Positions 20,261 through 32,438 of a stretch of 64,000 nucleotides of DNA are shown here, piece after piece. The stretch's first letter is position 1. Each line of letters begins with the position of its first letter. Made by a program: the position numbers and the translations under genes. Location of the stretch: positions 127,450-191,449 of the forward strand of contig NZ_MUHF01000002.1 in assembly GCF_002217435.1 (NCBI RefSeq). The letters run 5' to 3'. Under the pieces are notes generated by a model, which was not told where the DNA came from, did not search any database, and worked only from the letters and a program-made list of their open reading frames with translations. The DNA comes from Flavobacterium reichenbachii. GTDB lineage: Bacteria > Bacteroidota > Bacteroidia > Flavobacteriales > Flavobacteriaceae.

Positions 20261-20369
20261 ACTGCAAGATTAGCAGATAAAAAACAACGCTGTTCTATAA
20301 AACATGTCAACGGCTCTAAGAGCTTTTGAAATGCATTTCTTCATTCGATATTTATCTTATCTTTATCTC

Positions 20370-22013
20370 ATGTATCGGTTTTTACTTTTTATCGCTTTTT
20401 TGCTGCTCTTGTTTACATCATGTAAACAGGATATCGATTATTCAGAATCTAAGCCCGAATATTGGACAGGCAAAGGAACGCCGCTAGAATATCCTGGGAA
20501 AATAGGAGATTCGGCTTTTCATGCAAAGCTGGGTTTAAAACTGCTGAAACGCAACAAATCTGAACCTTTGGGCTTGCAGGTGAATGGTTTTGGAGCTTTT
20601 AAAGTATATTGGGATGGAGTTTATTTAGGTACAAATGGCCGAATGGCAGGATCAGGTCAACCCGAAATTCCTGGAACCGAAACGACCTATTACCAAATAC
20701 CTGAGAAATTTTCCAATTTAGGCGAACATGTTGTTACAGTAGTCGGAACACAATCTGAATTGAGAGATTCTTATCGAGGCATTGATATTAAACCCGAAAG
20801 TTACCTCAGAATGCTTCGTTTTCCGCTTATCATCATGTCTTTTATGAATCTGATGGCAGGCGCTTTTCTTATTGCGGCAATTTATTATTTTTTCCTGTAC
20901 CTCAATAGCAGTCATCGTCAGGCAGCTGTTTTGCTTTTTGGAATAATATGCCTGCTTTTCTTTATCCTGCTGATTATGGAATATGTAAAGTTTTATATCG
21001 ACATTCCATACACACAATTTTACACGAGATTAGAAATCGTCGGCTGGCTTACTTTTGCTATTTCAATGCTTGTTCCGTGGTATTTTATGCTGCAATTTGG
21101 CTTCGAAAAAAAGCGGTTGATTTTACTGCTTTTATTCGTAACTCTTATTGCTATTTACATTTTAAATTATCATCATTATGACATTACCGCCATGCGTTTT
21201 AGTTATGCTATGTGGTTTGCGGCTTTGGTAATTGCAGCTAGCGCGGTATTTAGAAAAATTAAAGGCGGATTAATCGTTTTGGCAGGTTTGCTGGCAAGTG
21301 CAATTGTAAATTACTTTCTGGTGTATGATTTTGGATTGTTTATCACTTTTACCATCATTGTACTTTCTATGCTTTACCTGCATACCATTCGTACCAAAGC
21401 AATAGAAGAAGCTCACGATGCATCGCTGCTTTTGTCATCACGACTGCAGCTGGAACTGCTCAAGAAAAATATTCAGCCGCATTTTCTTCGCAATACATTA
21501 ACCTCATTAATTGATTGGGTAGAAGAATCACCACAGCAGGGAGTCGTATTTATTCGCGCGCTGGCAGACGAGTTTGATATTATGAATTCTATTTCTGAAG
21601 TTACACTTATTCCCATTAGACAAGAAATAGAATTATGCCGAAAGCATCTGGAAGTTATGTCTTTCCGAAAAGAGGTCTGCTACGATTGGCAGGAAAATAA
21701 TATTGAGGAAAATGAAAGTATTCCGCCCGCCATTCTGCATACAATTATAGAAAACGGAATCACTCACAGTCTTACTCCGTCTGAAGGTTGTATTTGTTTT
21801 AGTTTGAATTTTAGAAAGGAAGTCACTTATAAAGAATATACGCTGCTTACTAAAGCAAAAAACCGCCAGACAAGAAAAGACAGAAGCACGGGAACAGGTT
21901 TTAAATATATCAAAGCCAGATTGAACGAAAGTTATGGCGATAATTGGCATTTTGAATCGCACGCAGTCGAACAGGGCTGGCTGACTATTATTAAAATTTT
22001 TGATAAAAAATGA
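20370..22013 (+). CDS. LytS-type sensor histidine kinase with lipoprotein-like N-terminus
   Basis: From ATG 20370 the protein has 547 residues and opens with MYRFLLFIAFLLLLFTSCKQ, a lipoprotein signal with lipobox cysteine C18. A periplasmic sensing domain (about 25-145) follows, then seven closely spaced membrane helices (about 150-355) and a coiled segment. The His_kinase domain has the phosphoacceptor in NIQPHFLRNTL (about 390), and a reduced ATPase domain holds IIENGITHSL and GTGFKYIKARL. In-frame starts up to 20304 exist, but the lipobox supports this one. The layout resembles 7TMR-DISM sensors. Its stop overlaps the next gene by 4 nt, so kinase and regulator are coupled. Confidence 0.87.
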   Translation: MYRFLLFIAFLLLLFTSCKQDIDYSESKPEYWTGKGTPLEYPGKIGDSAFHAKLGLKLLKRNKSEPLGLQVNGFGAFKVYWDGVYLGTNGRMAGSGQPEIPGTETTYYQIPEKFSNLGEHVVTVVGTQSELRDSYRGIDIKPESYLRMLRFPLIIMSFMNLMAGAFLIAAIYYFFLYLNSSHRQAAVLLFGIICLLFFILLIMEYVKFYIDIPYTQFYTRLEIVGWLTFAISMLVPWYFMLQFGFEKKRLILLLLFVTLIAIYILNYHHYDITAMRFSYAMWFAALVIAASAVFRKIKGGLIVLAGLLASAIVNYFLVYDFGLFITFTIIVLSMLYLHTIRTKAIEEAHDASLLLSSRLQLELLKKNIQPHFLRNTLTSLIDWVEESPQQGVVFIRALADEFDIMNSISEVTLIPIRQEIELCRKHLEVMSFRKEVCYDWQENNIEENESIPPAILHTIIENGITHSLTPSEGCICFSLNFRKEVTYKEYTLLTKAKNRQTRKDRSTGTGFKYIKARLNESYGDNWHFESHAVEQGWLTIIKIFDKK

Positions 22014-22705
22014 AGATTCTAATTATTGAAGACGAGGCGCGAATTGCCAAACGAATCGAAAGAATGACTCGGGATTTTTTTGATAAAGAAGCTCAGATTT
22101 TACTTTGCGATTCGGTAGAAAATGGATCAAATGCTATTGAAAGTCAGCCAATAGATCTTTTGCTGCTGGATTTGAATTTGAATGGTGAAGATGGTTTTGA
22201 TGTGCTGCAGTCTGTTGTGGCAAAATCTTTTCAAACTATCATTATTTCGGCTTACACAGAGAAAGCAATTACAGCATTTGCTTATGGAGTACTGGATTTT
22301 GTTCCCAAACCGTTTGATGTAATCAGGCTGTCACAAGCCTTTGAGCGTTTTACAAAACCAGAAAAACAATCGGGTCGGGATCTTCAGTTTTTAGCTGTAA
22401 AAAAAGCAAAAGTTATTAAACTTATAGATATTAAAGACATCAGATATATTAAGGGCGCGGGAATTTATACCGAATTGCATTTATCTGACGGGCGTATGGA
22501 ACTTCATGATAAATCTCTCGAATCTCTCGAAAAACTATTACCTCCAAGTTTCGAGCGAATCCATAAATCCTATATTCTTTGCTGGTATGAAGCAGATAAG
22601 CTTGTTGTAGAAGCTGGAGGAAAATATAGTATGCTGCTTAAAAATGCCGAATTACTGCCAGTAGGCCGTTCTAAATACAAAGAATTACGGCATAAAATGA
22701 TCTGA
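22010..22705 (+). CDS. LytTR-family response regulator
   Basis: This 231-residue protein has a receiver domain (about 1-120) with the acidic pair E7-D8, phosphoacceptor D54 in LLLLDLNLNGEDG and the conserved Lys in DFVPKPFD. A LytTR DNA-binding domain (about 128-228) follows, with IRYIKGAGIYTELHLSDG, FERIHKSYI and LLPVGRSKYKEL. The ATGA overlap with the kinase stop codon shows translational coupling. LytTR regulators bind direct repeats upstream of targets. Likely targets are the divergent TonB receptor or the downstream regulator, but no repeat pair was confirmed. Confidence 0.92.
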   Translation: MKILIIEDEARIAKRIERMTRDFFDKEAQILLCDSVENGSNAIESQPIDLLLLDLNLNGEDGFDVLQSVVAKSFQTIIISAYTEKAITAFAYGVLDFVPKPFDVIRLSQAFERFTKPEKQSGRDLQFLAVKKAKVIKLIDIKDIRYIKGAGIYTELHLSDGRMELHDKSLESLEKLLPPSFERIHKSYILCWYEADKLVVEAGGKYSMLLKNAELLPVGRSKYKELRHKMI

Positions 22706-22787
22706 TTGAATAATCACTTTTAACTTAACATACAATTTATGTTCAAGTAAACTTCCTATTGTATCCTTGCTGGTTAAAAGCAAACAA

Positions 22788-25700
22788 ATGGTTACAAGGT
22801 TATTTATAGTATGTTTTATTACACTACAGTCGTTTGGACAGCAAATAAAGTTCGAGAATTTTACTACTAATCAAGGACTATCAAATAATTCGGTAATTGA
22901 TATTGAAAATGATAAAGACGGCGGACTTTGGGTTGCTACCTGGGATGGATTAAATTATTATGATGGTCATAACTTTAAGAGCTTTAAACACAATCCTAAT
23001 GATCCTAAATCAATATCGAGTAATTATATCATTAAATTAAAAAAGGATAATGATGGATTTATCTGGCTGATTAGCAAAGAGGGTGATATAAATAAATATA
23101 TTGGAAATGGTAAATTTGTTTCATTTAAGTTTAAAAGTATTCCAAAAAATATTCTTCTTTCTGAAAAAGGGGATATCATTGTGCAAACCACTGCTGCTTA
23201 TTACGAATTTAAAAATGGAGCTTTTGTAGAAGTACCTTACAATGCTGTAAAAAAAACAAATCTCAATAACCTTAAAAATATACTGCTCCGGGAATATCCT
23301 AAACTTGTTATCAATGATGTTTTAAAAGATAAATTAGGAAATATTTGGTACGCTACTCAAAAGGACGGAATATATATTATTTCTGCAAATGCAGGCAAAA
23401 ATACGATTGCACATTTTACTTCTGATTTATACTTACCTTATTCTTTTAATAGTAATGAGATAGAAACGCTGCACGAAGACGATTTTGGAAACATTTGGCT
23501 GGGACAAAAAGACGGCGGTTTGAGTATGGCGTACGCGGGTTCAGAAAGAATTAATACTATTGTGCCGCATCCTGTAAAATATCCTAATTTACCGACTGAA
23601 ACAATTCGGGCTATTACGAAAGATTCAAATGGAAAAATCTGGCTTGGATATTATACAAATGGAATTTATTATTATAATGAAAATAGTCATTCCTACCAAA
23701 AATTCAGAATAAGTGAAGCCGCTTCAAATTCGGATTGGGAAAGAGTCCGGAATTTATTTACGGCTAGTGACGGAACGATTTGGGTAGGAACTTACAAAGG
23801 AATTATACGGATTTCCGGAGGTAAATATACTTGTTATGAGGCTGGAAAAATTGAGGAATTACCCAATAACAGATCCTATTCTATTTGTGAAGATGAAAAT
23901 AAAATACTTTGGATAGGGTGTTGGGGAGGTGTAGCCAAATTTAATCTGGCCGCTGAAAAATTTGAGAGTTTTAAAGGACAAAAAGCACTCAGCAAATACA
24001 ACGTCAGATGTGTAAAAAAAGACAAGCAGAATTTGATTTTAGCCACCGAAAGCGATGGTGTTGTAAACCTTAATCTGGAGACTAATGCTATAAATCAAAT
24101 TTCAAAACAAAAAGGTATTTTAGGCAATAGTATTTATTCTGTACTTATTGACAAAGCCACTGAAAATTATTGGATTGCTTCTTTGGGAGGAGTCAGTATT
24201 TATAATAAAAAAAAGGGCTTGGTTAAAAATATTACAGAAGCAGATGGTCTTCCTAGTCATATGGTTTATGGTCTTATCGATAACGGAGATAAAGTCTGGA
24301 TTAGTACCACAAAAGGAATTGCATCTATTGCTAAAAATAATTTTAAGATCACCACTTTTAATCCAGATCACGGATGGCAGGCAACAGAATTTTCAGAAGG
24401 AGCTTATTATCAGGATACAAAAGGAATTTTGTTTTTTGGTGGTATAAACGGGCTTAATTACTTCAATCCTAATAACATTCAGGCGATTCAATGCAGTGGA
24501 AAAATCAAATTAGCTGTAGATGGAAAAGAGAATTATCTGCCTGTAATAGAAAAGAGTTTCACTGATAATGAATTAGAAATTGAAATAATTCCGATTGTAT
24601 TTCCAAAAAACAATAACTCTGATATTTATTATAAGTTAGAAGGAAGAGATAAAAATTGGATTTTATTAAAAGATACTCAAAAAATAGAATACTCCAATTT
24701 ATCTTCAGGAGATTATAATTTTCTAATTAAACAGGGAGAAAACGGACTTGCGAAACCTGTATTTTTTACGCTTCATATCAGTAAAGCGTTTTATGAGACA
24801 ATTTTATTTTACATTTTATTTTCGGTTTTAATACTAATCGGCTGTATGCTCTTGATTTATTTTAAAAATAAAAGTGCAGCAGCAAAACAAGATTATCTGG
24901 AGGAAAAGATACGAAATCGTACTGCTGTGATTGAAAATCAGAAAAAAGATCTGGAAGCAATTAATAAAGAACTGGATGAAAAGAACAAGAAAATAATAGA
25001 GCAGAAAGAAAAACTTTTAGAGCTGCACAGTAATCTCAAAAATGAAAATTTTGAAATAGAAAAATTCAAAGCATTTATGCTGGCAGAATTTCAGGATCCT
25101 ATCGCTAAGATTATTAAAATTTCAAGTGCGCACAAAAAAGATAACGAAGTGCAGCGGGATTTACTTTTAGAATCGGGTAAACTGGCAAATCTCATTTCGA
25201 GCTGGAATTATTTAAGTTATGTTAAGGATATCGGTTCTTTGAAAAAATCTGCAGTTAATTTGTTTCCTATTTTAAAGAATAGTATTGAAAAATTAAAAAA
25301 AGACCTGCAGCGCAATCAGGTAAATTTAAACTGCGAAATTGACAATGCGGTCAATTTTGTGGCCATCGATGTATTAAGATTAAAATTACTGCTGCAGTAT
25401 TTTTTCAATGATATCAGTAAATATTCTGAGGTAGAGAGTACTTTAAATATCGAAATAGGTTATGAAAATGATTACTTAGTTGTAACTGTAGTTTCAGACA
25501 GCGTGATCTTAAAAAACAATTGGTACAATATTTTACATTACAGTCCTTATTTTAAAGCTTTACAAGTATTGCTGGAAGATTTAAACGGTGAATTTTCTGA
25601 TAGTTCAGAAGATGAGTTTAAGAGCACTTTACGAATTCCGTTAGAATTTGCCAGCGAAAATTTAAAAATTAAAGAAACAATTTCTTGGAAGCATTTTAAC

Positions 25701-26480
25701 AGCCAGGAATTATCCTCAGATAAAGAATTGTTTTTAGTTTTTAGCGACCAGTCTGATTATACAGCTGCAAATCAGGTTTTGGAGAATAGTAATCATCATT
25801 TGCTTTTTGAAAATTCGGTAGCAAATTTAAACTCAGCCATAAAACAGCTCAATTTTTCAGCTTTGGTATTTTATCAGGCAACATTTTCAAAAGAGCTGGT
25901 TCATTTTTTAGAGTCAAATAAAAAAATGCTGGGTCTTAAAATGCCTATGATTTATATTTCTGAAGATATTAACTACGAGCTGCATGAGCAATTATTAGAG
26001 CTGGGCATTGACACGCTTATTCAGTTACCAGCCAGCGCTTCATTTATTTCAAAAAAAATAGCTTCTCTAATAGATAAAAACAGAGAGACGCAGCAGGAAA
26101 ATGCAATGCAGCAAAAAATATTTGAAATTTTGACAGAAGATGATCCTCTGATAACGAATAATGATAAACTGGTAAAACAGGCTTTAGAAATTATAAAAAA
26201 GGAACTGCAAGACCCTTCTTTTAATGTAGAAACACTTGTAGAAAATTTAGAAATTTCGAGAGTAAAGTGCTACCGTATATTCAAAGAAACATTAAATCAA
26301 TCTCCTTCTGATGTCATTACTTCTTTAAGGCTGCAAAAGGCAGAAATACTATTAAAAACCAAAAAATTAAATATTTCTGAGATTAGTTTTGAATGCGGTT
26401 ACAACGATCCGAAGTATTTTGGACGTTCTTTCAAAAAATATTTCGGAAAAAGTCCTAAAGAATATAAAGCATTCTCCTAA
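22788..26480 (+). CDS. hybrid two-component-type regulator with degenerate kinase and receiver (pseudo-HTCS)
   Basis: From ATG 22788 this 1230-residue protein has a signal peptide ending SFGQ, about a dozen Reg_prop propeller repeats (NIWLGQKDGGL, TIWVGTYKGI and similar), a Y_Y_Y domain (about 575-660), one membrane helix (about 668-690) and a coiled coil. The kinase region follows. The position of the phosphoacceptor His is A766 (MLAEFQDP where SHEFRTP is expected), the N-box Asn is Asp in FFNDISKYS, and the G-boxes are missing. The receiver Asp position is Q1030 (LVFYQA) and its Lys is lost (TLIQLPA). The AraC-type HTH (about 1120-1230) is intact. It immediately precedes SusC/SusD, its probable target. 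An in-frame TTG at 22767 is less likely as start. Confidence 0.85.
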   Translation: MVTRLFIVCFITLQSFGQQIKFENFTTNQGLSNNSVIDIENDKDGGLWVATWDGLNYYDGHNFKSFKHNPNDPKSISSNYIIKLKKDNDGFIWLISKEGDINKYIGNGKFVSFKFKSIPKNILLSEKGDIIVQTTAAYYEFKNGAFVEVPYNAVKKTNLNNLKNILLREYPKLVINDVLKDKLGNIWYATQKDGIYIISANAGKNTIAHFTSDLYLPYSFNSNEIETLHEDDFGNIWLGQKDGGLSMAYAGSERINTIVPHPVKYPNLPTETIRAITKDSNGKIWLGYYTNGIYYYNENSHSYQKFRISEAASNSDWERVRNLFTASDGTIWVGTYKGIIRISGGKYTCYEAGKIEELPNNRSYSICEDENKILWIGCWGGVAKFNLAAEKFESFKGQKALSKYNVRCVKKDKQNLILATESDGVVNLNLETNAINQISKQKGILGNSIYSVLIDKATENYWIASLGGVSIYNKKKGLVKNITEADGLPSHMVYGLIDNGDKVWISTTKGIASIAKNNFKITTFNPDHGWQATEFSEGAYYQDTKGILFFGGINGLNYFNPNNIQAIQCSGKIKLAVDGKENYLPVIEKSFTDNELEIEIIPIVFPKNNNSDIYYKLEGRDKNWILLKDTQKIEYSNLSSGDYNFLIKQGENGLAKPVFFTLHISKAFYETILFYILFSVLILIGCMLLIYFKNKSAAAKQDYLEEKIRNRTAVIENQKKDLEAINKELDEKNKKIIEQKEKLLELHSNLKNENFEIEKFKAFMLAEFQDPIAKIIKISSAHKKDNEVQRDLLLESGKLANLISSWNYLSYVKDIGSLKKSAVNLFPILKNSIEKLKKDLQRNQVNLNCEIDNAVNFVAIDVLRLKLLLQYFFNDISKYSEVESTLNIEIGYENDYLVVTVVSDSVILKNNWYNILHYSPYFKALQVLLEDLNGEFSDSSEDEFKSTLRIPLEFASENLKIKETISWKHFNSQELSSDKELFLVFSDQSDYTAANQVLENSNHHLLFENSVANLNSAIKQLNFSALVFYQATFSKELVHFLESNKKMLGLKMPMIYISEDINYELHEQLLELGIDTLIQLPASASFISKKIASLIDKNRETQQENAMQQKIFEILTEDDPLITNNDKLVKQALEIIKKELQDPSFNVETLVENLEISRVKCYRIFKETLNQSPSDVITSLRLQKAEILLKTKKLNISEISFECGYNDPKYFGRSFKKYFGKSPKEYKAFS

Positions 26481-26605
26481 AAGTTTGTTAGGCTTGGGTT
26501 TACACAAAGTTAGTTGAATGTTAGGAAACAAAACACCCCTTTTTTGTGGTCAATTTTATCCCAATTTGAATCCAAAATCCTCTTTTATGAATCAAAAGTG
26601 CCCTA

Positions 26606-26632
26606 TTAAGCAAGCTGCTTAAAATACTTTTG
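26606..26632 (+). promoter_or_regulatory. susC promoter with adjoining 7-bp palindrome (candidate operator)
   Basis: TACTTTTG at 26625-26632 fits the TAnnTTTG -7 consensus 23 nt before the susC ATG. Immediately upstream, TTAAGCA-agc-TGCTTAA (26606-26622) is a perfect inverted repeat. No TTG occurs at the normal -33 spacing, suggesting activator dependence. Its position in the spacer could equally make it a repressor site. Confidence 0.5.
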
Positions 26633-26655: not shown

Positions 26656-29625
26656 ATGAAAAAAATTTACGCATTGTTAATTCTTGCATTAGGATGTATG
26701 TCATATTCTCATGCGCAGGGATCAATATCGGGAGCTGTGCTTTCTGATGTTGAAAAAATACCTGTACCAGGTGTTTCTGTTTATATAAAAGGAGAGCCAA
26801 AAGGAGCTGTGACAACAGATTTTGACGGGAATTTTAAAATTAAAGTACAGCAAAACGAAGGTATTTTAGTTTTTTCTTATGTAGGATTTAAAACAAAAGA
26901 AGTTGCTTATTCTGGGACTCAAAAATTAACTGTTTCCCTGGCAGAAGAAGTAAGTACTCTAAACGAAGTAGTAGTGGTAGGTTATGGTTCTCAAAAGAGA
27001 TCTGATGTAACCGGATCTATCGGATCTGTAAAAAGTGAAAATTTTAACAAAGGTGTCGTAGCAAATGCAGGACAGCTGATTCAGGGTAAAGTTGCCGGTG
27101 TTAATGTAACAGGAGCAAGTGGTGAACCAGGTGCTAATCAAGATATTATTATTCGTGGAGCTGGAAGTCTGCGTTCTGGAACAACACCGCTTTATGTAGT
27201 AGACGGATTTGCATTAGATAATTCTGGTACTGGTGTTGCATCAAATCCGATGAACTTTATTAATCCGCAGGATATCGAAAGTATTGAGGTTCTTAAGGAT
27301 GCATCTGCTTCTGCTATTTATGGTTCTAGAGCGGCAAACGGAGTAATTGTAATTACAACAAAAAAAGGAGCTAAAGGCCAGACCAAAATAAATCTTTCTA
27401 TGACTACTGGAGTTTCAACATTAGCCAACAAAGTTGATGTTTTTAGTGCTGATGAATTTAGAAAACAGGTTGCGGCTGTAAACGGAACTTTGCAGGACGG
27501 CGGAGCAAATACAGACTGGCAGGATGAATTAACGAGAACAGGTATTTCTCAAAACCTTAATTTATCGATGAGCGGAGGATCAGAAAAATCAACTTATGCA
27601 GCTTCATTAGGTGTAGACGATCAACAAGGTGTTTTAAGAAACAGTGATTTGAAACGTTACTCAGGTCGTTTAAATTTAAATCAAAAAGCTCTTGATGATA
27701 AGTTTAATATCGCTTTTAATTTAACAGGGACTAAACTTGATAATTCTCGACCAGATGCCAGAGGTTTAGTTGGTAATATGTTGACAATGAATCCTACGGA
27801 TGCAGTTTATGTTAATGGGCAGCCAAATGTTAATTTAAGTAATGATGTTTTAAATCCTTTGATTAGTCAAAGAATATATTCTGATGAAACCACTAACAAT
27901 CGTATTTTGGCAAATATTGCTCCATCTTATGAGTTTATAAAAGGATTGACTTATAAGTTTAATCTTGGAGTTGATTATTCGATGTCACAAAGAGATATTC
28001 AAGTTTTGCCATATGCAACAGCTACCAATACGACTTTAGGTTCTTTGAACAATATTGTGACAAACAATAATAATATTTTATACGAAAATACATTGACGTA
28101 TAATTTTAATAAAGGAAATCATAATTTCACTATTCTTGGAGGTCAGTCTTACCAAAAAATTCAGGTAAATCAAAAAAGTTTTAATTTATCTGGATTCCCT
28201 AATAATGGAGTTGAACCAAAAAATCAAATTGGAGCAGCAAGTGAGCGTACAACGCAGTCTTCATCAGCTGTAGAAAATGAACTTCAGTCTTTCTTTGGCA
28301 GAATAAATTACGGTTACGATAATAAATACCTTCTTACTGCAACAATGCGTGCCGATGGTTCGTCAAAATTTGGTGAGAATAATAGATATGGATATTTTCC
28401 TTCTGTTGCTTTAGGATGGAATATTACAAAAGAGGATTTTTTAAGCGAATCTGAAACGCTTAACAATCTTAAATTAAGAGCTAGCTGGGGGCAGACAGGT
28501 TCTCAGGAAATCCCTTCAAAAATTACAAAAGCTAGTTATACAGAAAGTAACACAGGAAACAATACTTATCCGTTAGATCCATCTGCTATAGATTTAGGAG
28601 GTTATCCATACGGAACAATTTTTACACGTCTGGCCAGTCCAGATATTCAGTGGGAGGTTTCTACACAGACCAATATCGGTTTAGATTTTAGTTTATTTAA
28701 TAATAGATTATCTGGTACTGTTGATTATTTTAACAAAGTTTCCAGCAAACTATTACTTCAAATAGCTCCTACAGATCCTATCCAGCCTGTACCAATGTAT
28801 TATACAAACATTCCTGATATGGAAATTAAAAACAACGGTATTGAAGTTGCTTTGGATTACAGCAGCGACAAAAGTCGTGATTTCTCATACAGTATTGGAG
28901 GAAATGTATCTTTTACAAAAAACAGAGTTGAAAAATCAGCTTACAAAATATTAACAACTGGAGGTGCGCAAGGAGGCGGACAATCTGGAGCAACTATAAA
29001 CGGAATTATCAACAATCAGCCAATTGGTTCTTTTTATATGCTTGATTTTGTAGGAATTGGTCCTGACGGATTAAATCAATTTGCAGATACAAATGGAGAT
29101 GGACAAATTCTTGATGATGACCGTATTGTTGCAGGAAGTGCATTACCAGATTACGTTTATGCTTTTTATCTGAATTTAAAATATAAGAATTTTGATTTCG
29201 GAGCTAATTTTAATGGAGCTGGCGGTAATAAAATTTACAACCACGTTGCAATGTCTTCATTCAACAGAGGAAATTTAGCAAATTCTTTCAATACGACTGA
29301 TAGAGCTTCAGAATATTTAAATGAAGCTTCTACAAATTCTAACACCGTTTCTACAAGATACTTAGAAGACGGAAGTTTCTTAAGATTAAATAATGCTACA
29401 CTAGGGTATAATTTGAGCCCAAAAATGATCGGACTTGATAATGTGATGGACAACATTCGTCTTTCTGTAACTGGACAAAACTTACTTGTTATAACTAAAT
29501 ACAGCGGTTATGATCCTGAGATAAATACAGGAACTTCAGTTGGAGAAATTCAGTCTTTTGGAATTGACTACTTCAGTTATCCAAGAAGCAGAACCGTTTT
29601 GTTTGGTTTAAACGTTGCATTTTAA
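26656..29625 (+). CDS. SusC/RagA-family TonB-linked outer membrane transporter
   Basis: This 989-residue protein has a signal peptide (ending SHAQG), an N-terminal carboxypeptidase-like domain (about 22-100, SISGAVLSDVEK...VSLAEE), the TonB-box-like LNEVVVVGYGSQKRSDVTGS (about 104-123) and a plug with DASASAIYGSRAANGVIVITTKKG (about 217-240). A long beta-barrel follows, ending in RTVLFGLNVAF. This is the SusC signature. With the SusD lipoprotein 16 nt downstream it forms a pedal-bin importer for oligomeric ligands. Expression is probably set by the upstream pseudo-HTCS. The secreted phosphatase downstream hints at a phosphorylated or phosphatase-released substrate, but this is inference. Confidence 0.95.
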   Translation: MKKIYALLILALGCMSYSHAQGSISGAVLSDVEKIPVPGVSVYIKGEPKGAVTTDFDGNFKIKVQQNEGILVFSYVGFKTKEVAYSGTQKLTVSLAEEVSTLNEVVVVGYGSQKRSDVTGSIGSVKSENFNKGVVANAGQLIQGKVAGVNVTGASGEPGANQDIIIRGAGSLRSGTTPLYVVDGFALDNSGTGVASNPMNFINPQDIESIEVLKDASASAIYGSRAANGVIVITTKKGAKGQTKINLSMTTGVSTLANKVDVFSADEFRKQVAAVNGTLQDGGANTDWQDELTRTGISQNLNLSMSGGSEKSTYAASLGVDDQQGVLRNSDLKRYSGRLNLNQKALDDKFNIAFNLTGTKLDNSRPDARGLVGNMLTMNPTDAVYVNGQPNVNLSNDVLNPLISQRIYSDETTNNRILANIAPSYEFIKGLTYKFNLGVDYSMSQRDIQVLPYATATNTTLGSLNNIVTNNNNILYENTLTYNFNKGNHNFTILGGQSYQKIQVNQKSFNLSGFPNNGVEPKNQIGAASERTTQSSSAVENELQSFFGRINYGYDNKYLLTATMRADGSSKFGENNRYGYFPSVALGWNITKEDFLSESETLNNLKLRASWGQTGSQEIPSKITKASYTESNTGNNTYPLDPSAIDLGGYPYGTIFTRLASPDIQWEVSTQTNIGLDFSLFNNRLSGTVDYFNKVSSKLLLQIAPTDPIQPVPMYYTNIPDMEIKNNGIEVALDYSSDKSRDFSYSIGGNVSFTKNRVEKSAYKILTTGGAQGGGQSGATINGIINNQPIGSFYMLDFVGIGPDGLNQFADTNGDGQILDDDRIVAGSALPDYVYAFYLNLKYKNFDFGANFNGAGGNKIYNHVAMSSFNRGNLANSFNTTDRASEYLNEASTNSNTVSTRYLEDGSFLRLNNATLGYNLSPKMIGLDNVMDNIRLSVTGQNLLVITKYSGYDPEINTGTSVGEIQSFGIDYFSYPRSRTVLFGLNVAF

Positions 29626-29641
29626 TAAAAAATAATATAAC

Positions 29642-31384
29642 ATGAAAAATAAAATAATAGTAGGAGCGCTGGCATTCAGTTTATTATTTACTTGGAGTTG
29701 TACAGACTTAGAAGAGAAAGTATTAGATGAATCTTTAAACGGAATCGGACAAGCAGAGGCGGTTAACGGAGCAATTGCTCCAGCATATGGTCAATTAAAA
29801 TCAACCTGGATTCATACTAACAATTTTGGTCTGCAGTTAATTGCAAGTGACGAAGGTATTTTACCTTACAGAGGAGGAACAGACTGGTATGATGGAGGTA
29901 AATATTTAGCTGTACACGCACATACTACAACACCTACAAATGATTTGGTTGGAAGTACCTGGAATGAACTTACAATAAATATTTCCAGAACATTATCAGC
30001 AATTGAAGTATTGACTCCTCTTGCAAAAGATGGAAATACAGAAGCACAAGGCGCACTTTATGAAATGAAAGCATTAAGAGCTTATTTGCATATGATGACC
30101 TTAGACAGCTGGGGAATTGTGTTTAAAAAAGAATCATCGTCAATAAACTCTCAGATAATTCGAGGACAAGAAGCTGTTTCTTATATAGAAAGTGAATTGT
30201 TGTCTGTGGCTGATGTAATCAATACAAACAAAGGACCGGGCAGAATGACGCAGGCTGCAGTTTGGGGACTTCTTTCCAGATTATATTTGAATGCAGCAGT
30301 TTACCGTGATCCTTATGGTAAACCAGTCTTTGCAGCAGCAGATATGGATAAGGTGATTAAATATACCGATAATATTATTAACTCAGGTAAATTCAGTTTA
30401 TCTCCAGAATATTTTGATTTATTTGATGATAATAATAATTCAAACAAAGAATTAATCTTTGCTATGGATCAGCGCGGTGTTTTAAAAGATGAAAACAACC
30501 GTTGGGCTTACTGGTCAATTCCGGGATCAATGTTTCCTAGACCAGAATATATTAATGCAGATGGTACAGATGGACCTGCTATTACTTCAGATTTTTATCA
30601 GACATGGGTTCAGGCTTATGGATCTGTAGATCCTGCAGATGCCGATTCTAGATTTTATAAGAACAATGCAAAAGTGCCGGCAAATTTGAAAGACCTTACA
30701 GGATTTTCTCCTTTAAATGACGAAAACCATTACTATTGTGTGAAAGCTGAGGAGTTCGAAATCGACAGAGGAATTATGAGAGGTATTCCCTGGGCAGCAA
30801 GAAAAGATGCTAATGGAGCATTTTTTAAATGTGACGGAGGATATAGAATTTACCCAGTTAAACAAATTAAAGGAAACGGACCTGATAAAAATGTGGGTTA
30901 TGTCAACCTGACAGAGAAAGTTGATTTTACTAAAGAAGGTAGTATGCACTATTCTGGATACAGAGTTTCTAAATACCAATTTAGTCACACATCTCCAGAC
31001 GGAAATTATTACAGCAGTGTAGATATGGTACTGCTAAGATATGCTGAAATTTTTATGATGCGTGCCGAGGCTAAATTAAGAAAAGGAGATACTGGAGGTG
31101 CATTGGCAGACATGAATATAGTAAGAACTTCAAGAACTGCTCGTGCTCCAATTCCTGCTGCGCTCCCAGCTATTAATTTGGATATTTTATACAGAGAATA
31201 TGGTTTTGAATTTTACTGGGAAGGCTTAAGAAGAACCAATCAAATTCGTTTTGGCCATTTTGAAGATAAATGGACAGAAAAAACAGATACTGATGTAAAT
31301 CATAGATTGTTCCCAATTCCTCAAAAAGCAATTGACGGAGCTTCTAACACTCCGGGGTATTTAGTACAAAATAAAGGATATTAA
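29642..31384 (+). CDS. SusD/RagB-family nutrient-binding outer membrane lipoprotein
   Basis: This 580-residue protein has a lipoprotein signal (FSLLFTWSC, lipid anchor C20) followed by the SusD fold. The marks are the helical TPR-like regions (about 80-220, ALYEMKALRAYLHMMTLDSWG) and the C-terminal RagB signature (DMVLLRYAEIFMMRAEAKLRKGD, near 460-485, then ILYREYGFEFYWEGLRRTNQIRFGHF near 515-540). It caps the SusC pore and captures ligand at the cell surface. It is cotranscribed with SusC (16-nt gap). A hairpin after its stop probably reduces read-through into the phosphatase gene. Confidence 0.95.
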   Translation: MKNKIIVGALAFSLLFTWSCTDLEEKVLDESLNGIGQAEAVNGAIAPAYGQLKSTWIHTNNFGLQLIASDEGILPYRGGTDWYDGGKYLAVHAHTTTPTNDLVGSTWNELTINISRTLSAIEVLTPLAKDGNTEAQGALYEMKALRAYLHMMTLDSWGIVFKKESSSINSQIIRGQEAVSYIESELLSVADVINTNKGPGRMTQAAVWGLLSRLYLNAAVYRDPYGKPVFAAADMDKVIKYTDNIINSGKFSLSPEYFDLFDDNNNSNKELIFAMDQRGVLKDENNRWAYWSIPGSMFPRPEYINADGTDGPAITSDFYQTWVQAYGSVDPADADSRFYKNNAKVPANLKDLTGFSPLNDENHYYCVKAEEFEIDRGIMRGIPWAARKDANGAFFKCDGGYRIYPVKQIKGNGPDKNVGYVNLTEKVDFTKEGSMHYSGYRVSKYQFSHTSPDGNYYSSVDMVLLRYAEIFMMRAEAKLRKGDTGGALADMNIVRTSRTARAPIPAALPAINLDILYREYGFEFYWEGLRRTNQIRFGHFEDKWTEKTDTDVNHRLFPIPQKAIDGASNTPGYLVQNKGY

Positions 31385-31466: not shown

Positions 31467-32438
31467 ATGAAAACACCAATAATGCAAAAAGGGATATTTT
31501 ATGTATTTATTTTTACAATCTCTATCAGTTTTGCTTCAGCTCAGACAAAAGACAATAGTGTCAAAAAATATCCTGGTGCGCTAAACTTTATTGTAATGGG
31601 AGATTGGGGCAGGTTTGGAGAAGATCATCAGATTCCTGTAGCAAAACAAATGGGTATTACTGCCAGAGAGATTAATCGTGATTTTATAATTTCTACGGGT
31701 GATAACTTCTACCCAATAGGTGTTGCAAGTGAATATGACCCACAATGGAAATCATCTTTTGAAGACATTTATACCGATTTTTCACTCCACTGGAACTGGT
31801 ATCCAGTATTAGGAAACCATGATTATGCCGGTAATCCAGATGCTCAGGTAGCCTATTCAAAAATAAGCCGACGCTGGAACATGCCCGCCAGATATTACAG
31901 CAAAACGTTTAATATAAATGGAGATTCAAACCAGCAGGTATTAATCGCTTTTATCGATACAAATGCATTAATTCCAGAATTTTATAAAAATGACGTTTAT
32001 GGTAAAAATGTAATTTCACAAGACAGCACTGCTCAAAAGAAATGGCTTATTAAAACCTTGTCAGATGCACCTAAAAGCGTGAAGTGGAAATTGGTTGTTG
32101 GACATCATCCCTTGTTTACGGCAACTCTAAAAAGAAGAGAAAGTTACGATACCAAAGCAGTAAGAAAATCATTAAAATCTTTGTTGGATAAATATCAGGT
32201 AGATGCGTATATCGCCGGACACGATCATGATTTACAGCATTTACTGCCAGAAGGCAAAACCAATTATTTTGTTTCAGGATCAGCGTCTGAATCTACTGTT
32301 ATCGACAATTTGCCAATTAGTAAACTGGCTTCTTCAGAATATGGTTTTATGGTCTTTTCAGTTTTAGCCAACTCGTTAAATGTACAAGCGGTTAACGAAA
32401 AAGGCGAAGTAATTTACAATACTGAAATAAAAAAATAA
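31467..32438 (+). CDS. secreted metallophosphoesterase, tartrate-resistant (purple) acid phosphatase-like
   Basis: This 323-residue protein has a signal peptide (about 1-25, ending FASAQ) and a calcineurin-like fold. All metal-binding blocks are present: VMGDWGRFG (about 43-51), STGDNFYPIG (about 73-82), VLGNHDYAGN (about 113-122), VVGHHPLFTA (about 210-219) and YIAGHDHDLQH (about 248-258). This order matches type 5 acid phosphatases that release phosphate from phosphomonoesters at a di-metal site. Its secretion and place after SusC/SusD suggest it prepares the imported nutrient or scavenges phosphate. A start at the second Met (31482) is possible. Confidence 0.9.
   Translation: MKTPIMQKGIFYVFIFTISISFASAQTKDNSVKKYPGALNFIVMGDWGRFGEDHQIPVAKQMGITAREINRDFIISTGDNFYPIGVASEYDPQWKSSFEDIYTDFSLHWNWYPVLGNHDYAGNPDAQVAYSKISRRWNMPARYYSKTFNINGDSNQQVLIAFIDTNALIPEFYKNDVYGKNVISQDSTAQKKWLIKTLSDAPKSVKWKLVVGHHPLFTATLKRRESYDTKAVRKSLKSLLDKYQVDAYIAGHDHDLQHLLPEGKTNYFVSGSASESTVIDNLPISKLASSEYGFMVFSVLANSLNVQAVNEKGEVIYNTEIKK

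Follow-up and report, generated by a model that had tools for sequence, protein, structure and literature searches.

A regulator gene in a window of 64,000 nucleotides from Flavobacterium reichenbachii (the whole stretch of contig NZ_MUHF01000002.1 that we analyzed) encodes a protein laid out like a hybrid two-component system (HTCS). We found it to be a maintained pseudo-HTCS, which very probably acts without phosphotransfer. We read it best as a transmembrane regulator that controls organophosphate scavenging independently of phosphorylation. That the regulator core has lost phosphotransfer is well supported by the residues at its former kinase and receiver sites.

The reading frame is open from the ATG at 22788 to 26480 and holds neither a stop nor a frameshift. 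An alternative TTG start at 22767 was listed among the open reading frames (ORFs); the residue numbering of a preliminary description, made from the letters alone, fits the ATG. With Pfam (E<=1), we recognized Reg_prop (6e-31), Y_Y_Y (2e-9), HTH_18 (6e-19), and HTH_AraC. Thus, that description was right to call the sensor and the AraC output intact and the protein full length. Even at this threshold, Pfam gave no match in the regulator to HisKA, HATPase_c, or Response_reg, and no HTCS-level NCBIfam model stood among the 25 of 28 matches listed. The host genome (5.58 Mb) encodes four other HTCSs with open frames of 1328 to 1389 aa, all of which have the His, the N-box Asn, the Asp, and the Lys. 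The closest named matches of the regulator are from Flavobacterium.

Residues lost and replaced in the core

We counted residues in a MAFFT alignment of 49 distinct orthologues and 15 canonical HTCSs, the latter including the four from the same genome. Exact duplicates were removed (seven in one alignment, five in another). A contig-end fragment (L021) and a copy with a broken frame (L036) are counted among the 49; a copy that lacks most of its propeller (L127/L147) is outside them. The H-box phosphoacceptor His, present in 15 of 15 canonical proteins, aligns with A766 of the window protein, where the orthologues have Ala (26), Ser (20), Thr (2), or Lys (1). The N-box Asn, likewise present in 15/15, aligns with D875, which is Asp in 42 orthologues, Glu in 5, Ala in 1, and Gly in 1. 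This orthologue-wide absence of both residues (0/49 and 0/49 versus 15/15 and 15/15) is not chance. As a published background rate, such sites are missing from 0.9% of HisKA domains and 2.0% of receivers (PMC12632262, as far as excerpted).

The glycine boxes are also gone. The G1 box reads SDSVIL in the window protein, and the ATP-lid/G2 segment is 21 residues long in 49/49 and shows the glycine pattern in 0/49, compared with 33 to 40 residues and the pattern in 15/15 canonical HTCSs. Former kinase sites have instead become fixed to new residues: Y871 in 49/49 (Asn in 15/15 canonical proteins) and S905 in 49/49 (Gly in 15/15). Further near-invariant new residues occupy former ATP and receiver sites, namely S919-P920-Y921, Y1029, E1059, and L1080. 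The preliminary description had reported Ala for the phosphoacceptor His, Asp for the N-box Asn, and loss of the glycine boxes, and all three hold across the orthologues. Residues 701 to 759, a presumed coiled coil, form an extension mostly missing from the canonical HTCSs compared. Its H747, 19 residues ahead of the H-box, is conserved in 44/49 and replaced by Tyr in 5/49. We ruled out H747 as an alternative phosphoacceptor, since it lies outside the H-box, varies to Tyr, and has no ATP boxes left to serve it. It was the one alternative His considered, and no aligner gave the window protein a receiver Asp; a refuting alignment would have had to supply both.

In the receiver-like part, the Lys found in 14/14 canonical proteins is kept in 0/48 orthologues (site L1080; Leu in 47, Met in 1, one gap). 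The location of the receiver Asp site depends on the aligner: HMMER against a solved HTCS receiver gives Q1030, MAFFT gives Y1029, and gapped hhalign output puts it, by eye, at K1035. None of these is Asp in the window protein, whichever placement holds. Position 1030 is Gln in 32 orthologues, Asn in 14, and Asp in 2, with one gap, while position 1029 is Tyr in 48/48 and Asp in 0/48. The first residue of the acidic pair is S986 in the window protein and is acidic in 0/49. The claimed loss of the receiver Lys is thus borne out; the claimed change of the receiver Asp to Gln stands as a loss of Asp, but its assignment to Q1030 follows HMMER and not MAFFT or hhalign.

HTCSs have been reported to be kept off until phosphorylation by an S/CHIP motif in the receiver that contacts an Asp and a Lys of the DNA-binding domain, and in BT4124 substitutions at these S/CHIP-DK contacts led to phosphorylation-independent DNA binding (Gao, Wu and Stock, PMC11253607, as far as excerpted). 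We located the Asp and the Lys from the distance of 39 residues between them (positions 1344 and 1383 of BT4124), hand-counted on L054 in the alignment. The orthologues have S/C in 0/48, H in 2/48, D in 0/47, and K in 0/47; the canonical HTCSs have S/C in 12/14, H in 13/14, D in 12/15, and K in 14/14. In the window protein, the contact reads LKMP, and the contact Asp and Lys have become Asn and Ile (Table 1). The core, which cannot be phosphorylated in the usual way, has also lost the contact relieved by phosphorylation, and this is what one would expect of a regulator that works independently of it.

Ancestry, selection and retained fold

In a tree built from the propeller only, a single branch with a Shimodaira-Hasegawa-like approximate likelihood ratio (SH-aLRT) support of 100 set all 49 orthologues apart, though branches were long and the outgroups only 14; L066, which has many unknown residues, was left out. 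Most simply, kinase and receiver phosphotransfer were lost once in a common ancestor. In the genus, 14 of 150 genomes (the host included) carry the regulator at E<=1e-150. Within the family, the core profile found matches in 19 of 397 genomes: the host, 15 with strong matches (from another 13 genera), and 3 whose matches are weak and partial. A class-wide core search (395 genomes) returned the host genome and one weak match, and a phylum sample (385 genomes) gave 22 genomes with matches, 5 of them strong and the rest weak and partial. Belliella (Cyclobacteriaceae) also carries an orthologue, and the 49 orthologues come from Belliella and from 14 genera in the family sample. The preliminary description had proposed looking for a conserved clade adjoining SusC/SusD and phosphatase genes; we found one clade, with a conserved cassette.

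We observed open frames of at least 1230 aa in 47 of the 49 distinct copies, the exceptions being L021 (1012 aa, contig end) and L036 (1117 aa, broken). We then took the ratio of nonsynonymous to synonymous substitution rates (omega; Nei-Gojobori, median over pairs) in 17 members, with L021 and L036 excluded. In six close Flavobacterium members, the DHp-, CA-, and REC-like parts had omega values of 0.11, 0.09, and 0.08, the propeller one of 0.14, and the AraC domain one of 0.04; the corresponding values in a second group, of eleven members, were 0.07, 0.10, 0.11, 0.11, and 0.05. These values are rough, with a synonymous divergence of ~1 or above and some pairs saturated (e.g., 51 of 55 pairs used for the REC-like part). 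The core is under purifying selection, about as strict as that on the sensor.

Two damaged copies were seen. In L036:8001-11875, the frame is broken near the AraC domain into the 1117-aa frame and a second overlapping one, which could be a sequencing error. In L127/L147 (G1211:C1, ~401000-403000), most of the propeller is deleted in frame, leaving a 629-aa open frame; the core, the AraC domain, the GTTA array described below, and the SusC, SusD, phosphoesterase, and PhoA1-type genes are kept. This locus is a natural test of constitutive activity.

Aligned with 14 canonical cores by hhalign, the core gave a probability of 97% and an E value of 1e-10 and was collinear across DHp, CA, and receiver. 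Judged from these profiles, it is an altered HTCS core that shares ancestry with the canonical ones. An AlphaFold core model built with 21 orthologue sequences (predicted local distance difference test [pLDDT], 80.5; predicted template modeling score [pTM], 0.73) contained the DHp, CA, and REC folds. With this model, the best Foldseek matches were histidine kinases (3dge, E 2e-11), and DivL, RetS, and ShkA were also matched. VIA matched the pseudo-CA domain to plant phytochrome and ETR1 CA domains (Z 16) and the pseudo-receiver to receivers (Z ~15). Thus, structure prediction, which the preliminary description had put forward as a check, recovered all three folds, and the DHp-CA-receiver core is predicted to persist as a fold without catalytic residues. 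The modeled receiver part, a receiver fold that lacks the key phosphorylation residues, is what is called a pseudo-receiver.

Proposed mode of action and alternatives

We propose that the kinase and receiver, no longer capable of phosphotransfer, would be retained as an allosteric coupling scaffold. A periplasmic ligand, probably the product of an organophosphate substrate of the adjoining cassette, would alter the dimer of propellers. From there, the membrane helix, the added coiled coil, and the stacked pseudo-DHp, pseudo-CA, and pseudo-receiver parts would relay the change to the pair of AraC domains; these would then bind an 11-bp-phased GTTA array and switch on the susCD and phosphatase genes. 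We consider it probable, with some reserve, that a ligand signal is passed mechanically to the AraC domains and activates the cassette; in this we infer the dimer, the ligand, the direction of regulation, the operator binding, and the mechanical step. The preliminary description had suggested a regulator that works mechanically, without phosphorylation. Our results support that the core is incapable of the usual phosphotransfer, that selection maintains the protein, and that its homologues fall into one clade next to SusC/SusD and phosphatase genes; mechanical ligand signaling is a proposal. We are evenly divided on the wider view that a complete phosphorelay with its latch was converted in one ancestor to a purely allosteric transmembrane rod, which has since retained newly fixed residues in its core together with an operator array of its own and a single operon devoted to organophosphate scavenging.

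The candidate operator lies in the gap between the regulator and susC, which in most loci is ~180 bp long. The pattern GTTA-N8-TTA is present in 43/46 intergenic regions (shuffle mean, 1.8; maximum, 6), with the match in L122 (at least) falling outside the array. Spacings that we had earlier assumed for the array were wrong (4/46 with a shuffle mean of 4.8, 2/46 with 2.0, and 0/46 with 1.7) and were corrected to 11 bp. The sequence GTTAGNNNAATGTTAG has one exact match in the host genome (26509-26524 of the window) and three with one mismatch. Further on, TACTTTTG fits a -7 element, for which we take TAnnTTTG to be the Bacteroidetes consensus. TAnnTTTG was found in 34/46 intergenic regions (shuffle mean, 7.6; maximum, 16), and in most Flavobacterium loci, the 11-bp-phased repeats are followed by this element 116 to 117 bp further on.

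Several observations weigh against our reading. The receiver is less thoroughly altered than the kinase because 37/49 orthologues still have Asp or Glu as the second residue of the acidic pocket (D987), 44/48 have Ser at the Thr site (S1058), and two (L116 and L117) have Asp at 1030. Ser is able to do the job of Thr in receivers. The claim that every phosphotransfer residue is missing therefore held for the His, the N-box Asn, the glycine boxes, and the Lys but went too far for D987 and for S1058, a conservative change. The Foldseek TM-scores of the core, normalized by query, are ~0.4, and only part of the model aligns. In a model of the receiver with the DNA-binding domain (pTM, 0.64; pLDDT, 87), the mutual arrangement of the two is undefined: the Foldseek and VIA matches listed cover the domains separately or with a large root mean square deviation, and 12aw, a solved HTCS fragment that a sequence search had turned up, was absent among the structure matches listed. 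GTTA-N8-TTA is missing in L051, L118, and L120, and TAnnTTTG is missing in 12 of the 46 gaps. Shuffle counts overstate the significance of these motifs, which were picked after viewing an alignment of related sequences. Finally, the ligand and the target are ones that we infer. As a separate observation, L116 and L117 have Asp1030 despite loss of the Lys and both acidic-pocket residues, possibly as an ancestral remnant.

We weighed four other explanations. In the first, the dead core itself senses: the pseudo-CA domain or pseudo-receiver would bind a cytoplasmic molecule, such as a nucleotide or a phosphate-status signal, and gate the AraC domains, alone or with the propeller. The near-invariant new residues at the former ATP and receiver sites, from Y871 and S905 to L1080, would suit such a pocket, and ligand-binding pseudo-receivers are known in ShkA (also a Foldseek match here), CikA, and KaiA (PMC12632262, as far as excerpted). 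Against this, purifying selection on the propeller in the 17 members tested speaks for a signal from outside, and we consider this explanation rather unlikely.

A constitutive DNA binder is one that we judge distinctly unlikely. Here, with the latch gone, the AraC domains would always be bound, as activator or repressor, and output would be set by the amount of protein or by other regulators, e.g., the Pho system. Loss of S/CHIP-DK across the orthologues is consistent with this, as is the retention of core, array, and cassette in L147 after in-frame loss of most of its propeller, and BT2391, which has a non-consensus motif, is reported to repress its polysaccharide utilization locus (PMC11253607, as far as excerpted). 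A constitutive binder would not need its propeller, yet purifying selection acts on the propeller (omega, ~0.11 to 0.14) in those 17 members.

Very unlikely, in our view, is a partnered pseudo-kinase, for which some active HTCS or histidine kinase of the cell would serve as a mixed-dimer partner or as a modulator. The core model matched DivL and RetS, both of which act through partners, four canonical HTCSs are encoded in the same genome, and the pseudo-receiver has kept D987 and S1058. Against this, the receiver has no Lys and, in 46/48, no Asp at 1030. Upstream of the regulator gene, at 20304-22705, lies a LytS-type sensor kinase and LytTR response regulator pair. We rejected this pair as a partner, as it has no homologue (phmmer, E 1e-15) in 27 other loci, of which L033 and L052 have <0.4 kb upstream. 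A decaying pseudogene, for which the two damaged copies speak, is exceedingly improbable and was rejected for the whole clade on selection and conservation: the homologues are not scattered pseudogenes, given 47/49 open frames, omega of ~0.1, and the conserved cassette and array.

The pseudo-HTCS, in our preferred reading a mechanically coupled regulator, resembles the canonical Bacteroidota HTCSs (BT4663, BT4124, and the four in its own genome) in its Reg_prop/Y_Y_Y sensor, its membrane helix, and its DHp-CA-REC-AraC order, and many of those also adjoin susC/susD. It differs from them in having no His, N-box Asn, glycine boxes, ATP lid, receiver Lys, or S/CHIP-DK and in its added coiled coil. 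ALR domains (PMC4395418) are reportedly grouped with folds kept without catalysis. Such retention of a kinase or receiver fold is described for the pseudo-histidine kinases and pseudo-receivers DivL, RetS, and ShkA, but the pseudo-HTCS has both folds dead in one polypeptide that also bears sensor and output (PMC12632262, as far as excerpted). BT4236 of B. thetaiotaomicron is a partial precedent: its phosphoacceptor His is replaced by Q848, its contact reads CSIP-EK, which departs from the consensus, and the authors of that study suggest a phosphorylation-independent mechanism (PMC11253607, same excerpt). That case concerns one protein and its His site, whereas here 49 orthologues have lost the kinase boxes, the receiver site, and the contacts. 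SusR-like regulators are membrane-spanning, join a periplasmic sensor and a cytoplasmic DNA-binding domain in one chain, and bind DNA upon sensing their sugar; the excerpted part of that source describes no pseudo-kinase or receiver for SusR (PMC3878776), and the DNA-binding domain of the pseudo-HTCS is HTH_18/AraC by Pfam.

In the open-licence literature, we found no dead or phosphorylation-independent HTCS family beyond BT4236, no regulator of the pseudo-HTCS type for a phosphate utilization system (PUS), and no case in which a whole clade had lost kinase, receiver, and latch; direct sensor-to-DNA regulation and one His-less HTCS were already known. The clade would offer a natural split of conformational signaling from phosphotransfer in a histidine-kinase fold, by which the share of mechanical signaling in HTCSs becomes directly testable. 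It also provides a candidate regulator and a candidate operator for a phosphorus-scavenging SusCD system and a caution that HTCS annotation does not imply a phosphorelay.

The adjoining SusCD-phosphatase cassette

Table 1. Features of the regulator gene and of the genes and putative control elements that follow it (positions in the window).
Feature	Position	Strand	Basis and details
Pseudo-HTCS regulator gene, 1230 aa	22788..26480	+	ORF list and translation
Periplasmic sensor, Reg_prop propeller repeats and Y_Y_Y, residues 21-668	22848..24791	+	Pfam
Presumed membrane helix, hydrophobic stretch, ~residues 672-693	24801..24866	+	Read from translation
Presumed coiled-coil extension, residues 701-759	24888..25064	+	Alignment; helix in model (model begins at residue 722)
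Pseudo-DHp	25065..25253	+	Alignment; helical hairpin in model; A766 = 25083-25085
Pseudo-CA domain	25254..25622	+	N-box D875 = 25410-25412; G1 lost, 25494-25502; ATP-lid/G2 absent
Pseudo-receiver	25710..26072	+	Y1029/Q1030 = 25872-25877; S1058 for Thr; L1080 for Lys = 26025-26027; LKMP 1050-1053
AraC/HTH_18 DNA-binding domain	26145..26477	+	Pfam; contact Asp replaced by N1125, contact Lys by I1164
Candidate operator: TGTTAG, GTTTAC, AGTTAG, TGTTAG at 11-bp phase	26486..26524	+	Upstream of susC
TACTTTTG, fitting the presumed Bacteroidetes -7 element TAnnTTTG	26625..26632	+	
SusC-like TonB-dependent transporter	26656..29625	+	TIGR04056; conserved next gene
SusD-like lipoprotein	29642..31384	+	PF07980; conserved position
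Calcineurin-like phosphoesterase	31467..32438	+	PF00149, 6e-18

SusC and SusD follow the regulator on the same strand in 46/46 loci (45 distinct), and a PhoA1-type alkaline phosphatase then follows in 44/46 (phmmer), the exceptions being L029 and L115. In L115, a second SusC/SusD pair after the cassette stands in place of the PhoA1-type gene. In the window, the calcineurin-like phosphoesterase occupies the PhoA1-type position after SusD; it has a homologue in 5 of the 46 loci compared and also in L147. Pfam found Alk_phosphatase and GDPD_2 in five loci scanned (Flavobacterium, Cellulophaga, Arenibacter, and Belliella), with GDPD_2 below cut-off in L049. Judged by gene content, the SusCD and phosphatase cassette qualifies as a PUS. 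In F. johnsoniae, PUSII is reported to combine SusC-SusD with PhoA1 (pf00245+pf13653), its genes being strongly induced by phosphate depletion, and to lie with a FecR-like regulator, Fjoh_3252 (PMC8115612, as far as excerpted). The enzyme type is thus shared, but Fjoh_3252 stands in place of the pseudo-HTCS, so that a similar kind of cassette is found under two unlike regulators; the low-phosphate induction is the one reported for PUSII.

The host genome has a PhoA1 relative (42%) on another contig, within an extracytoplasmic function (ECF) sigma-FecR-SusCD-alkaline phosphatase locus; GDPD_2 was not found in it at E<=1e-5. This second organophosphate-type locus of the genome, L142 (G000:C9:162000-176000), holds ECF sigma, FecR, SusC, SusD, alkaline phosphatase, and calcineurin-like phosphoesterase genes and resembles PUSII. 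GH92 (alpha-mannosidase family) genes lie near the cassette, downstream of SusD, in L029 (Pfam) and in L032, L035, L045, and L053 (phmmer). These neighbors in five Flavobacterium loci hint at a phosphorylated mannan-type substrate.

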